This document shows positions 1,935 to 63,883 of a DNA stretch of 64,000 nucleotides, in pieces. The DNA comes from Candidatus Cloacimonetes bacterium HGW-Cloacimonetes-3 (lineage in GTDB: Bacteria > Cloacimonadota > Cloacimonadia > Cloacimonadales > Cloacimonadaceae), in the NCBI GenBank assembly GCA_002840645.1, contig PHBO01000003.1:248001-312000 (forward strand), given 5' to 3'. Within the stretch, counting starts at the first letter, position 1, and each line of letters starts with the position of its first letter. The position numbers and the translations under genes are program-made. The notes under the pieces were generated by a model, which was not told the origin of the DNA, made no database searches, and saw only the letters and a list, made by a program, of their open reading frames with translations.

Positions 1935-1961
1935 TTCCCTTCCCTTCCCTTCCCTTCCCTT
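1935..1961. repeat. Pentanucleotide microsatellite (TTCCC)5
   Basis: Five exact tandem TTCCC units followed by TT sit in the otherwise empty 1789-2108 gap between a plus-strand terminator and the minus-strand terminator of the beta-helix gene. The gap shows no convincing gene: the short open frames across it are low-complexity and lack ribosome sites. Such tracts can vary in length by slippage, but both neighbouring genes end here, so no phase-variation role is evident. Confidence 0.85.
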
Positions 1962-2108
1962 GCTTCAATTACAGTACCATTACGGATTTATTGCAGATTT
2001 TATCCATATTAAACCTGCAATGATACTGCAATGCATGCAGGGAAACAATCATACAAACATATGGTAAGCTGAATTATTGCCTGGATTTGCAGCAAATATC
2101 CAGCTCAC

Positions 2109-10512: not shown

Positions 10513-10613
10513 CTTCCCTGCTTCTATCTCTAATAACTCCATAACAATTCCCTAACAATTCCCTAACGCCGTTAGGGAATCATTAGAGAATTGTTAGGGC
10601 AATACTAAAGATA
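10513..10613. repeat. 11-bp-periodic palindromic element A
   Basis: A 29-bp imperfect stem pairs 10539-10567 with 10571-10599 (25 of 29 positions identical after complementing) around a GCC loop. TAAY words recur at 10531, 10542, 10553 and 10564, and their complements RYTA at 10571, 10582, 10593 and 10604, each exactly 11 bp apart. The left boundary carries CTTCCCTGCTTC, like the other elements in this window. There is no terminator-like T tract. It lies between the PLP enzyme gene and the tRNA-tuf operon. Confidence 0.85.
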
Positions 10614-10843
10614 GGACAAAGGGCGACTGTACATCCCCATGGGAGGTTACAGATTTGCATGCTTGGTTGAGACCTTGCAGCATTCTCTTTTGTAAAGCGT
10701 ATAAAAAGCTTCAAAAAACTGTTGACAGAAAGGGGGTAGAAAATTTCTTAGCCATCTAAGTGAGAAATCGCGAAGGTTATAGAGTGAGTCCGAAAAAGAT
10801 ATTGACAAAAACAGGCTAATGAAATTGCTTGACAGAACTTGTT
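10614..10843 (+). promoter_or_regulatory. Leader of the tRNA-tuf operon with several TTGACA boxes
   Basis: No gene is visible in the stretch before the first tRNA. TTGACA occurs exactly three times (10722-10727, 10802-10807 and 10829-10834). The first two are placed to serve as -35 boxes for the tRNA-tuf transcript, but neither has a good TATAAT match 16-18 bp downstream. This is therefore a likely promoter zone without a mapped start. Confidence 0.35.
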
Positions 10844-25155: not shown

Positions 25156-25324
25156 ATACAAATCGTGACTTTTGCTATAAGCTTGGGAAGCGTGGATGCG
25201 GTTAGGTTCGTGAGAGATTGATAGTTTACAAGGTTCTCTTTCAAACTTGGTGGGCAGCTTAGGTTATCAACAATATCATTTATTCATAAACCCAATAAAA
25301 TAGCATAGCAAACTCTATCTTTAG

Positions 25325-25393
25325 CCTTGCTTGCAGGTCATATCCTTCCCATAACCCTCCCGTATCGGATATGGGAGGGTTATGGGAATCTTT
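25325..25393. repeat. 11-bp-periodic palindromic element B
   Basis: A 16-bp perfect inverted repeat (TTCCCATAACCCTCCC with its complement ending at 25388) extends towards the centre with one G-T pair. Units start CATAT 25339, CATAA 25350 and CGTAT 25361; TATGGG recurs at 25370 and 25381, all on an 11-bp grid. The left boundary CCTTGCTTGCAGG matches the other elements. No T tract follows. Confidence 0.8.
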
Positions 25394-26190
25394 ACAGTAA
25401 TAAGTCGCCTAAATCTATGTTGGTAGTCACGCGGTAATACCATGCTTGAAATGCAGGGCTGGGGGCATAATCCTGGTTTTGCCACCTTTAATACCAACCC
25501 ACATAATTTGAATGAGAGCTGTATACATGCTGAGGTCTGCGTTGATATTTAGTGATATCACCACTTGCTCAAACCACAATTAAAGCGAATATTTACGCGA
25601 AGGGAAAAAAAGCTTGACGCAGATACAGGCTTTTCGAATGATGCGCCCTGCTCAAAACACAATAACAGTAGAGCCGAGTAATTACCTCTGTTTGTTGAGG
25701 TTAGTTTCAGAGTTCAGAAGTTGAGCAAAAACTATTCATAATGTTGTATAGCGGATTCACATGTTCTGCTATCCCAAGGAGTTTGGATGTCTTTTTGCGA
25801 ACGTGCAAACAAGATTAGCACTCTCAGAGGATGCTCTCCGGCTCCTGATGGCGAAAAGCGACAGATAGCAGGTGTCGGCAGTTATGAATCCATATTAGGC
25901 AACCTTATTAAACAATTCTTCAATTCTACTTACGGTGAATCAAACAGCTCTTCTTTTCTACACTCTTTGTCTAATAATCATCGCACATTATTACCATGTC
26001 GAGTGTCACTGAAGACCTGCTGCTTCCCACCTTTCATCAATCGTCAAAATCAAACCGGTTTAGCCTTAGACCTCCTAATTAAAACACCCTTCCGGAGTCA
26101 TATGTAAATAGTATGAACCGTTAGGTTTGCTGAGGAGGGGGCAATTAGACCCCCAAAAATTAACCCTATAAAACACTTAAGGAAGTCATT
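25394..26190. other. Long intergenic region before the C10 peptidase gene, no supported gene
   Basis: About 800 bp without a convincing coding sequence. The one open frame with a ribosome site (AAGGAG before an ATG at 25787, 106 codons) has composition unlike the neighbouring genes and no recognisable fold, so I do not call it. The stretch before 26191 probably contains the promoter and a long leader; AAGGAAG precedes the peptidase ATG. Confidence 0.5.
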
Positions 26191-32249: not shown

Positions 32250-32420
32250 CTGCGGAGGAGGCTGTAAAAAAAACCACAGGGATGAAAGAAAAGACAGTTT
32301 AATAACCCTGAACGCTGATTTCAGAGGCTGAAAATAAACCCACAGGGATGAAAGAAAAGACAGTTGAATAATCCGGAACGCTGACTTCAGAGGCTGTGAA
32401 AATCCCGCAGGGATGAAAGA
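32250..32420. repeat. 66-bp tandem repeat (about 2.5 copies)
   Basis: The block starting CCACAGGGATGAAAGAAAAG at 32274 recurs at 32340 and, degenerate, at 32405 (CCGCAGGGATGAAAGA). The spacing is 66 and 65 bp, and the first two units are nearly identical across their length. The unit contains CTGA(T/C)TTCAGAGGCTG. It is non-coding. Such CAGGGATGAAAG repeats are seen between genes in several environmental lineages (my recollection); their function is unknown. Confidence 0.8.
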
Positions 32421-32426
32421 TTATAG

Positions 32427-32456
32427 CCCAGGGTGAAGCTTTAGCGAAACCCTGGG
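32427..32456. repeat. Intergenic hairpin CCCAGGGT...ACCCTGGG
   Basis: An 8-bp perfect inverted repeat with a 14-nt loop containing AGCTTTAGCGAA, directly after the tandem repeat. A similar hairpin with GGTAGCGAAACCCC occurs near 61470. No T tract follows, so it is not an obvious terminator. The rest of the 32.46-32.79 kb gap shows no gene. Confidence 0.65.
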
Positions 32457-32788
32457 TTAGGTTGCACCAGCTTAGCAAACCCCTTGGGGGTGACACATAA
32501 TAGCGTGTCCTGCAATTACTTGTGTCGCCTATAATGTGCTTTTATGTTAATATCATATCCCTTGGGGCTCACGCCCCATGCAATGCTCTCTCGCCATACC
32601 ATGGCTTTTTCACAGCCTTGAGCAGGTATAACAGGAGTGGTTTGCATTTAAGGTATTTTTCCTAAGACACTTTCCCATAAGTGGCTTATATCTTCAATTA
32701 CTCTCTTCAATATTACAATAATCATCCTGCTAAGCTGGAAATAATATAATCAATTCCAACACAATTAGTTACAGCATCCGCCACAGTT

Positions 32789-32901
32789 CTTCCTTGCTTG
32801 AGGGCGTTTATCAATTCTTAATCCCCTCTTAATCAAGCGTTAATTATTAACGCTTGATTAAGAGGGGATTAAGAATTGATTAAGGCTCTGGAGTAAGGAA
32901 G
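32789..32901. repeat. 11-bp-periodic palindromic element C
   Basis: A 35-bp perfect stem pairs 32810-32844 with 32846-32880 around one central base. Seven 11-bp units span 32807-32883. The left constant words are TTTAT (32807) and TTAAT (32818, 32829, 32840); the right ATTAA words are at 32846, 32857, 32868 and 32879. Variable 6-mers between them are complementary across the arms. Outside lies a weaker stem: CTTCCTTGCTTGAGGGC on the left against the complement CTTCCTTACTCCAGAGC on the right. It lies between the C10 peptidase terminator and hutH. Confidence 0.92.
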
Positions 32902-33000
32902 AAGCATCGCTTGACAAAAAAACCTGCTTTTGGGAAGGTGCTTCAAACCATTGATTTTTGTATTCATATCACCCCAAGATTATTGTAGATAGAGGAAAGC

Positions 33001-39729: not shown

Positions 39730-39820
39730 CTTCCTTGCAGGAATAACGGATGCATTACGCATGCAATACGCATCACATCCGTAATGCATGCGTATTGCAT
39801 CCGTTATTCAAGCAAGAAAG
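39730..39820. repeat. 11-bp-periodic palindromic element D
   Basis: A 29-bp stem pairs 39741-39769 with 39781-39809 with two mismatches (an A-A and a T-T) around an 11-nt loop. CG dinucleotides fall at 39747, 39758, 39769, 39780, 39791 and 39802, exactly 11 bp apart. The outer ends CTTCCTTGCAG and AAGCAAGAAAG are themselves partly complementary. It lies between convergent hisS and the phosphomannomutase gene, right after the hisS terminator. The remaining gap to 39960 shows nothing. Confidence 0.88.
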
Positions 39821-45537: not shown

Positions 45538-45660
45538 CTTTCCCTGCTTGTCTCCGGTATTCCGCTGGATTTCCGATAACGCATTAACCATGGGCAGGCC
45601 ATGATAAATCATGGTGAAATCATGGTCAGATCATGGGCAGTATTCTTCCGGCTTGCAAGG
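45538..45660. repeat. 11-bp-periodic element E (tandem CATGG form)
   Basis: CATG(G) words start at 45589, 45600, 45610, 45621 and 45632 (spacing 11, 10, 11, 11). A short palindrome, CCATGAT/ATCATGG, lies at the centre. The arms are less symmetric than in the other elements. Boundary words CCCTGCTTG (left) and GCTTGCAAGG (right) agree with the family. It sits between the divergent ppdK and helix-hairpin-helix genes. Confidence 0.65.
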
Positions 45661-45827
45661 TTAGTGCCTAAGGAGGATAACGCTTGAAGCAAATGTGTAT
45701 TTTGAGAAGAGAGTAATTGTTTAGACACGTGAAAAAATAGCTTTACAGATTTGGTGCTATCTGTAGCTTGTCAATTCGTGTAAATATCGAGATGATAAGA
45801 AATGATAAAATACCATAAGGAAAAGCT

Positions 45828-60961: not shown

Positions 60962-61000
60962 TCATCTGTACCGCAACAATATACCTGCTCTCCCCATGCT

Positions 61001-61117
61001 TCTTCCTTGCTCCACAGCGTTAATCACTTCTTAATCCCCCCTTAATCAAGCGTTAATTATTAACGCTTGATTAAGGGGGGATTAAGAAGTGATTAACACC
61101 CTCAAGCAAGGAGGGAG
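61001..61117. repeat. 11-bp-periodic palindromic element F
   Basis: A perfect 39-bp stem pairs 61019-61057 with 61059-61097 around one base. Seven exact 11-bp units span 61020-61096. TTAAT starts at 61020, 61031, 61042 and 61053; ATTAA at 61059, 61070, 61081 and 61092; complementary 6-mers lie between. The outer ends are CTTCCTTGCTCCACAGC (left) and CCCTCAAGCAAGGAGG (right). These are element C's ends in the reverse orientation, so the two are copies of one asymmetric element. Confidence 0.95.
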
Positions 61118-62206: not shown

Positions 62207-62348
62207 TTAGATATTTTTGGAGTATCAGTAAAACACACACGTGATTTATAAATGATAGATTGGATTGGATTCTACGTAAATCCCTCAATGATTATCTTGA
62301 CAAAAAACAGTGATATTTAAAGACTTGCCTCAATTAAATGGAGAGAAC

Positions 62349-62990
62349 ATGGATAAAAGTGTGAAAGACTTATTCACTGACCCAGAAATTACGGCAAAGA
62401 TACAGACAAAATTTCCCATACTCTTTCATATGGCGGAAGAGGAAACTAAGAGAGATGGCAGAATAGGTATGGAGGTCGGAACTATGAGGGAAAGAATAGT
62501 TGTTTCTCTACTTATCTATTATTTTGGAGAGCAGCGAGTTAATACTCATGTTCCAACAACAGAAGCCGAGAAAGACGTGATTCTTGATAATATTCCAATA
62601 TCTATCAAGACTATCACCTCAAAATCAAACTACAATTATGGTGGCGTAAAAGTTTCGTGGACAGTAGATGCAGCAAAAGCCAAGGAATTCGCAGACAACT
62701 ACACACCTACTTGTGACATATTATTTGTGCAAATAAGCTGGGCAAATATCGGTGCTTTCTATTATATACCCAAGAAAGTACAGCAAGATGTTTTATTAAC
62801 ATTGGGCAGTGAGAGTTTTATCAAACTACCTAAAGCAGGCACAAACCCCCGAGGTATAGAGTTTAGTAATACTGCTTTCAGATTGCTCTGTGAAAATAAA
62901 GAGACTTTCAAGTTAGCAATTGATTGGAAGAAACCAGATGTACAGATTGATGTTTATCAAAAATGGATAGAGCTATGGCAACAAGATTAG
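62349..62990 (+). CDS. Type II restriction endonuclease, possibly ThaI-like
   Basis: I take ATG at 62349 (MDKSVKDLF), preceded by GGAGAG; an upstream GTG at 62310 would add 13 residues. This gives 213 residues. A PD-(D/E)XK-type core is visible: an E in MEVGTMRERIVVS (about residue 45), then D-x9-SIK in EKDVILDNIPISIKTIT (about 84-100). An adjacent DNA methyltransferase gene overlaps its 3' end, the normal arrangement of a type II system. Resemblance to the ThaI family is from memory of that family's SIKT motif and is tentative. The cut site is not readable. Confidence 0.75.
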   Translation: MDKSVKDLFTDPEITAKIQTKFPILFHMAEEETKRDGRIGMEVGTMRERIVVSLLIYYFGEQRVNTHVPTTEAEKDVILDNIPISIKTITSKSNYNYGGVKVSWTVDAAKAKEFADNYTPTCDILFVQISWANIGAFYYIPKKVQQDVLLTLGSESFIKLPKAGTNPRGIEFSNTAFRLLCENKETFKLAIDWKKPDVQIDVYQKWIELWQQD

Positions 62991-63883
62991 ATAAAAAACA
63001 GGGTACTAGCACCAGTTCTTTTGGTAGCCCGGGAAGAATTAATCATGATTCATCATCATTTTACAATTCCCGCCTTTATGAAGGTTTAGCTTCTGACGTT
63101 ACTAAAATAAGAGCTGAGAACCTTATGCCAGAGTGTTATTTAAACAAGCATTTCTGCCAATCAAGCGAAAACATGGTTCAATTACCAGACCGATCCGTAC
63201 ATCTGATGATAACTTCACCTCCGTATAATGTTACTAAAGCTTACGATAATAACCTAAACTTGGATGAGTACAGAAGTTTGCTGAAAAGTATCTGGAAAGA
63301 AACACATCGAGTATTGGTAGATGGAGGAAGGGTTTGTATTAATGTTGCTAACTTGGGAAGAAAACCCTACATCCCCTTGCATAGTTACATTATAGAGGAT
63401 ATGCAGAAACTGGGTTTCTTTATGCGGGGAGAGATTATTTGGAATAAAGGTACCAGTGCAAGCCCTTCAACTGCATGGGGTACTTGGCTTTCGGCTAAAA
63501 ATCCTGTTCTTAGGGATATTCACGAGTATATCCTTATATTTTGTAAGGGGAGCTACACAAGAGAAAAAAGTGATAAAGTAAGTGATATAACAAGAGATGA
63601 GTTTTTGGAATACACAAAAAGTGTTTGGGATTTTTCAGCAGTATCTGCAAAGAAAATTGGGCATCCTGCTCCTTTTCCAGAAGAGTTACCTAAACGCCTT
63701 ATAAAGCTTTATTCCTTTGTTGGTGATGTAGTTTTAGATCCCTTCTTAGGAAGTGGGACTACCAGCTTAGCAGCAGTAAAAACTAACAGAAACTACGTGG
63801 GTTACGATTTAAACCAAGATTACATTGATCTTGCTGATAGAAGAGTAAGCACATATTTGGATGTTACTGAGATTGATATTTGA
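62963..63883 (+). CDS. DNA methyltransferase of the type II restriction-modification pair
   Basis: A 306-residue N4-cytosine/N6-adenine amino-methyltransferase. The catalytic motif IV is TSPPYN (SPPY at 85-88). The AdoMet-binding motif I, DPFLGSGTT (259-267), comes after it, so the order is that of the beta group. The target-recognition region lies between (about 130-250). The start at 62963 overlaps the endonuclease gene by 28 bp; an alternative ATG at 62975 would lose four residues. Base composition is more AT-rich than the surrounding genes, as expected for an acquired cassette. Confidence 0.93.
   Translation: MDRAMATRLDKKQGTSTSSFGSPGRINHDSSSFYNSRLYEGLASDVTKIRAENLMPECYLNKHFCQSSENMVQLPDRSVHLMITSPPYNVTKAYDNNLNLDEYRSLLKSIWKETHRVLVDGGRVCINVANLGRKPYIPLHSYIIEDMQKLGFFMRGEIIWNKGTSASPSTAWGTWLSAKNPVLRDIHEYILIFCKGSYTREKSDKVSDITRDEFLEYTKSVWDFSAVSAKKIGHPAPFPEELPKRLIKLYSFVGDVVLDPFLGSGTTSLAAVKTNRNYVGYDLNQDYIDLADRRVSTYLDVTEIDI

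Follow-up and report, generated by a model that had tools for sequence, protein, structure and literature searches.

Intergenic gaps of Candidatus Cloacimonetes bacterium HGW-Cloacimonetes-3 carry palindromes whose arms are built of words repeated every 11 bp, and one recurrent protein of ~150 amino acids is encoded near them. The 11-bp grid is real, and its extent is much larger than first noted. We put at roughly 55% the probability that these elements are dispersed palindromic binding arrays, each family of words being served by its own paralogue of this undescribed protein family.

The window, which is the whole 64,000-nucleotide stretch analyzed, sits in contig 28 of a 2.68-Mb genome of 32 contigs. 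At 61000..61116 (dyad 61058, arms of 58 bp, end boxes TCCTTGCT and AGCAAGGA), three units of TTAAT plus a 6-mer lead to the centre TTAATTATTAA and are followed by their exact complement, just as the preliminary description had stated. A second palindrome of this family (family A), which had not been singled out there, occupies 32787..32903 (dyad 32845) and is 91% identical to the 61-kb copy. The other gaps that had been named (10.55, 39.77 and 45.61 kb) are also on the grid, as are two more near 1.99 and 25.37 kb. These hold a family D palindrome of CCTAACRATTC words (10513..10625, dyad 10569), a 91-bp family B palindrome of NATTACGSATG words (39730..39820, dyad 39775), a family C palindrome of CCATAACCCTC words (25320..25414, dyad 25367), a decayed family-B-like grid element (1958..2045, ATTACAGTACCATTACGGATT... 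/ ...CTGCAATGATACTGCAATG) and the CATGG element (45540..45661), in which direct words at 11-bp spacing lie between CCTGCTTG and GCTTGCAAGG boxes and the symmetry of the arms is poor.

Some neighbors of the family A copies were recorded separately. The gap of the 32.8-kb copy also contains tandem CCACAGGGATGAAAGAAAAGACAGTT repeats and an Acido-Lenti-1 RNA (RF01687) that scores above the gathering threshold at 32401-32456 on the minus strand. Positions 62310-63883, some 1.2 kb away from the element at 61 kb, encode a restriction endonuclease of the ThaI type (PF15514, E 2.5e-73) and, after it, an N6/N4 DNA methylase, likely a complete restriction-modification pair.

To measure the extent of the grid, we scanned the window and further stretches (844 kb, about a third of the genome) for imperfect palindromes. 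The best arm period was 11 bp in 56 of the 57 tight palindromes (loop ≤ 6, arm ≥ 18). Symmetric shuffling of the arms gave a period-11 count of 5.1 ± 2.1 with a maximum of 13. Neither of the two tight palindromes in a 200-kb E. coli control had this best period. For single elements, with the best period allowed anywhere in 6-16, the shuffle P values were 0.006 (61.0 kb), 0.017 (32.8 kb), 0.078 (25.4 kb) and 0.001 (1.99 kb), and none of 2000 shuffles was as good as the elements at 10.55, 39.77 and 45.61 kb.

Further members were found both in the host genome and in its relatives. Host word families comprise TTAAT (A), NATTACGSATG (B), CCATAACCCTC (C), CCTAACRATTC (D), CATTGCCCACC, GGTTCATCGGG, GATTCCCGGAG, CCTGCCACGAC (F), GATTAAAGAAT and CATGG, while relatives have CATTGCTTACC, ATTCCCATATC, TATACAGAAAC, CAATACGGATT and CCTTAGTATAA. 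The occurrence of so many word families on the same grid supports the earlier claim of one construction with changing words. In a second species (G008, 400 kb), all seven palindromes had a best period of 11 and their words differ from those of the host; the same period was found for three of four palindromes in G016. The 180 kb of G011 that were scanned contained no palindrome and hence no grid element (this genome has one copy of the linked protein described below), and 387 kb from three genomes of other families of the order (G039, G041 and G044) yielded no palindrome with a best period of 11. When named genomes were searched with an exact pattern of the family-A core, almost all matches were in Candidatus Cloacimonadota. 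Exact cores also occur in two contigs of metagenome-assembled genomes, L278 and L318, labelled Atribacteria (JPAS_maxbin.136) and Firmicutes (ADurb.Bin080), which are likely misbinned Cloacimonadota. Two other kinds of repeat were seen alongside these elements: a grid family with a unit near ACACGGTAGCTG (L036:2117-2169 and L044:10038-10080), for which we found neither a recognised end box nor a cognate gene, and an abundant intergenic inverted repeat without the 11-bp period (GTCATTCCCGCGGAGGCGGGAATCC...; host genome, L044, L046, L049 and L050).

The elements are 91-137 bp long, with up to six units per arm. Family A has 16 copies in the host genome and, across 110 copies, spans d = -58 to +58 about a 1-nt centre at which identity peaks; similarity ends at d=58, and the number of units is constant. 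The shared end box GCAAGG is found 48 bp from the dyad (d=48) in families A and D; in families B and C the distance is 37 bp (d=37). Both positions equal 4 mod 11, in register with the grid, so element lengths differ by whole 11-bp units. The preliminary description had given all members a boundary resembling CYTGCTT(G). The shared box is real in families A, B, C and D, but family F is bounded differently. Individual words can occupy different slots (GATTAACGCTT, GATTAAGAGGG). Across families, word and dyad keep a fixed phase, with P ≤ 0.0006 when 15-19 families are included, 0.007 for 10 and 0.13 for 5. Conservation within family A has no significant helical period by permutation test. One could imagine that hairpin-templated repair or slippage makes palindromes and 11-bp units without any function, and the shifting of words between slots and the joint change of the two arms would be expected of such a process. 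We nevertheless regard a mutational by-product as very improbable, given an end box in register, a constant unit number in family A, the fixed phase between words and dyad and the linkage to a cognate gene.

Intergenic gaps, delimited with a home-made gene caller, hold 63 of the 65 scored palindromes; one, which is not on the grid, lies inside an ORF. The gaps are tandem (36), divergent (16) or convergent (11) and follow the share of base pairs in each class without preference, so there is no enrichment at gene 3' ends of the kind expected of an intrinsic terminator or 3' UTR element. Comparison with same-genus relatives, whose flanking genes are roughly 70-83% identical, showed that orthologous gaps are mostly empty or occupied by another grid family. 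The family B element at 39730..39820 is missing from the orthologous hisS/pgm gap of G003, G006, G008 and G017, and G003, G006 and G010 lack the CATGG element in the corresponding gaps. For instance, the PPDK/comEA gap contains CATGG in the host, nothing in G003 and a CATTGCTTACC grid element in G008. One other gap contains three different grid families in three species.

We looked for the signatures of known mobile machinery. The 110 family-A copies have no excess of target-site duplications of 3-9 bp and only a weak signal at 1-2 bp, and joining the flanks in search of exact empty sites returned tangled repeats with no clean junction. The 844 kb searched, about a third of the genome, yielded neither a related autonomous element nor a transposase with matching ends. 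An insertion sequence with a transposase that recognises CTTCCTTGCTT might have given rise to the elements as its ordinary MITEs, the grid and the linked gene being incidental. Common ends, length classes and dispersal are what such repeats would show, but the 110 copies have no target-site duplication, the 844 kb contain no TIR-flanked and no multicopy transposase gene, the centre is more conserved than the ends, and the linkage to a protein is strong. We therefore give this explanation very little weight.

Other partners were considered and rejected. Reverse transcriptase is missing from G014 (74% complete), G015 and G016, all of which have grid elements. The presence of Y1/RAYT genes is inconsistent (G010 and G030 have family A without Y1, PF01797), and Y1 genes have their own non-grid repeats. 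Those of the RAYT-like Y1 genes in L372, L374, L375, L362 and L041 are palindromic, with 2-6 flanking copies, and are apparently further REP families. Phage carriage was dismissed, as viral contigs contain no element core and a single homologue of the linked protein lies by a Mu-like prophage, without an element. In this viral contig (L382, 996-5447), genes for a Mu-like transposase, an ATPase and a repressor adjoin the homologue, and no grid palindrome lies upstream of it. The linked protein is absent from the phage collection searched.

The preliminary description had proposed looking for a linked protein family, and one was found. Clustering of the ORFs near elements yielded one recurrent real protein, of ~150 amino acids. 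Among the 22 of its genes with upstream sequence, 16 have a grid (period-11) palindrome within 450 bp upstream, compared with 22 of 400 control ORFs (P = 3e-14). By profile search, all 50 listed genomes of the Cloacimonadaceae, the family of the host, have the protein, the host itself with 28 matches; elsewhere in the phylum it occurs in 10 of 75 genomes, at 1-4 copies each. It has no match in Pfam, NCBIfam, PHROGs or PDB, and a domain search recognised no DNA-binding, catalytic or response-regulator domain. A structure model built from four sequences (pLDDT 75) predicts an N-terminal beta hairpin followed by helices and has no fold match. The invariant residues (G14, R33, S60, Y70, W86 and P121) fit no nuclease pattern known to us.

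Different paralogues carry different words. Family A lies beside eight close homologues, and at L072, the ninth of these close homologues, the words of the element are altered. Independent genome hits agree, for in eight other genomes (G002, G004, G009, G010, G014, G015, G017 and G023) the closest homologue of the A-linked protein adjoins a family A hit. Family C lies beside L341 and GATTAAAGAAT beside L087, and the words are GGTTCATCGGG for L036, GATCAAGAGCA for L372, GATTCCC for L352, ATTCCCATATC for L107, CATTGCTTACC for L103 and two TATACAG-like words for L347 and L348. For L098, BLAST and a lowered threshold revealed a family B element. The A-linked proteins have a mean identity of 70% among themselves and 37% to the others, and related words occur in the protein pairs C/L107, B/L103 and L347/L348. 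Protein identity tracks word similarity when all 18 pairs are used (Mantel rho 0.42, P 0.0004), and the correlation is weak when a single A protein is kept (rho 0.21, P 0.08). Across 37 genomes, 14 have both the A-type protein and A elements, 3 the protein only, 7 the element only and 13 neither (hypergeometric P 0.0045). No cognate gene was identified for families D, CATGG and F of the window, as the reading covered only about a third of the genome.

The position of the element relative to the linked gene is informative for family A. There a few tens of bp separate the end of the element from the start codon, and the gene-side arm has GATTGACA where solitary copies mostly have GATTAACG. TTGAC occurs in 7 of 8 gene-linked arms versus 8 of 226 other arms (P 7e-9), and one of these 8 adjoins a homologue with a premature stop. 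TTGAC(A) thus forms a -35-like hexamer within the gene-side arm of the array. In the non-A families the element lies about 40-340 bp upstream of the gene, and no -35-like box was seen in it. A second shared motif, (A)TCTGTCCCAAAA...TGTCCCCCACACTACTATRGAGGG or CCCNTATATATAGA, lies near the start codons of L036, L098, L341, L107, L352, L034 and L225 and is missing from the A-linked genes; it is probably the promoter of those paralogue genes. Its TCTGTCCC form also follows the Y1 gene in L041, near 18080.

We favor a model in which each paralogue would bind its own words cooperatively, with one subunit per 11-bp unit, in the manner of the 11-bp direct repeats of ArcA (PMC3798270) and the opposed arrays of DnaA (PMC6070618). 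Binding to the promoter copy would regulate the protein's own gene, the copy before the gene being its operator. Solitary copies may have spread from symmetric source copies, possibly with the involvement of the same protein, and we favor autoregulation at the gene-linked copy combined with dispersal of solitary copies in the fashion of REP/RAYT. Words and protein would diverge together, which would explain a fixed construction with changing sequence.

The linked protein could instead be primarily a mobilising enzyme, that is, a new REP/RAYT-like domesticated transposase or recombinase for which the palindrome is a folded or duplex substrate, with regulation secondary. This would fit the dispersal of the copies and their turnover between species, the lack of target-site duplication, the symmetric source copies with decaying progeny, the presence of one gene per family with an upstream element and the failure to find other mobile machinery. 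On the other hand, no catalytic motif was recognised and the invariant residues match no familiar nuclease pattern, no gene was seen with grid elements on both sides, and the promoter hexamer points to regulation. We consider an enzyme of this kind possible but somewhat unlikely.

The symmetry of the arms bears on whether DNA or RNA is recognised. The preliminary description held that pairing is kept while words change, and this is correct, with a reservation, between lineages: the family A arms change together (97 haplotypes, z 9.2 versus shuffled partners), with 12 distinct words identical on both arms in one slot, a covariation that is seen with 110 copies and absent with 23. It does not extend to individual copies, as the family A arms do not covary inside the host genome (0.748 vs 0.786 shuffled) and family B has fixed same-base mismatches between its arms. 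The joint change of the family A arms across lineages indicates that each new subfamily restores the symmetry. Most simply read, an element needs its symmetry at copying or new binding and not as a resident copy.

These mismatches and the lack of covariation within the genome, together with the absence of any excess of G.U over A.C among mismatches on the gene-sense strand (32 vs 35), give no support to the selection of an RNA hairpin that had been suggested. The arm data speak against such a hairpin; they favor a protein on duplex DNA or a need for symmetry confined to copying. An RNA device, in which the palindrome is transcribed and its hairpin bound by the protein, could draw on the 11 bp per turn of A-form helix: a period that stays at exactly 11 through as many as six units of an arm suits this form better than 10.5-bp B-DNA. 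The element also lies close upstream of the A-linked start codons, and the arms covary between lineages. Besides the mismatch data, however, the -35-like box in the downstream arm suggests that transcription starts beyond the element, convergent and divergent gaps are also occupied, and no element of the window has a match in Rfam. An RNA device is thus quite unlikely in our judgement.

The preliminary description knew of no element of this construction, and our literature searches did not find a description either. The closest parallels are the REP/REPIN elements and their RAYT (TnpA-REP) proteins, which are likewise dispersed extragenic palindromes in many copies, with no target-site duplication seen and with one copy adjoining the gene of a cognate protein. 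The spread of REPs is ascribed to TnpA-REP proteins. The grid elements differ in their length of 91-137 bp, in the 11-bp grid and in the absence of a GTAG/CGTC tag (the family-A consensus from 110 copies ends in GCAAGGAAGA and the family-B consensus from 20-21 copies in GCAAGGAAG), and their protein is not Y1/HUH (no PF01797, no Pfam match). REPs are 20-40 bp long, with GTAG/CGTC tags and stems of 5-13 bp (PMC3733652). MITE, ERIC, RUP and Correia-type repeats are also intergenic palindromic repeats of about 100 bp with a patchy distribution. Several of these are tied to insertion sequences and have terminal inverted repeats and a TA duplication, neither of which was found for the grid elements.

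Other parallels concern the spacing. DnaA boxes are 9 bp long and, with a separation of 2 bp, the oriC arrays make an 11-bp grid. The low-affinity DnaA sites of E. coli oriC form two oppositely oriented arrays with 2 bp between sites, according to the part of PMC6070618 that cites Rozgaja 2011. These arrays form a single locus with one word bound by DnaA, whereas the grid elements comprise dozens of loci, many words and an unrelated protein. Sites of the OmpR-family regulators ArcA and PhoB consist of two to five direct repeats, mostly 11 bp centre-to-centre (PMC3798270). The grid elements are also direct repeats at this centre-to-centre distance, but ArcA and PhoB sites are not inverted about a dyad and are not dispersed as mobile units, and the protein linked to the grid elements has neither a response-regulator domain nor the winged-helix domain of the OmpR/PhoB family.

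The protein family beside the grid palindromes is new, and the pair looks like an undescribed system of a protein and its DNA site. More tentatively, and with somewhat less than even odds, we propose a class of genetic system not previously described, with up to ~28 orphan paralogues per genome, each co-evolving with its own grid palindrome, which would be promoter and operator at the gene and a mobile dispersed copy elsewhere. It would be a third, HUH-independent solution beside the REP/RAYT and MITE/insertion-sequence pairs. If this is true, the geometry of this new protein-DNA pair (11-bp grid, dyad and phased end box) is fixed while its words diversify together with the cognate protein, and this diversification has been repeated many times within one genome. 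The cognate protein-word pairs are directly testable in vitro and would provide a natural series for reading a protein-DNA recognition code. The system would also account for a good part of the intergenic repeats in a phylum known from anaerobic digesters.
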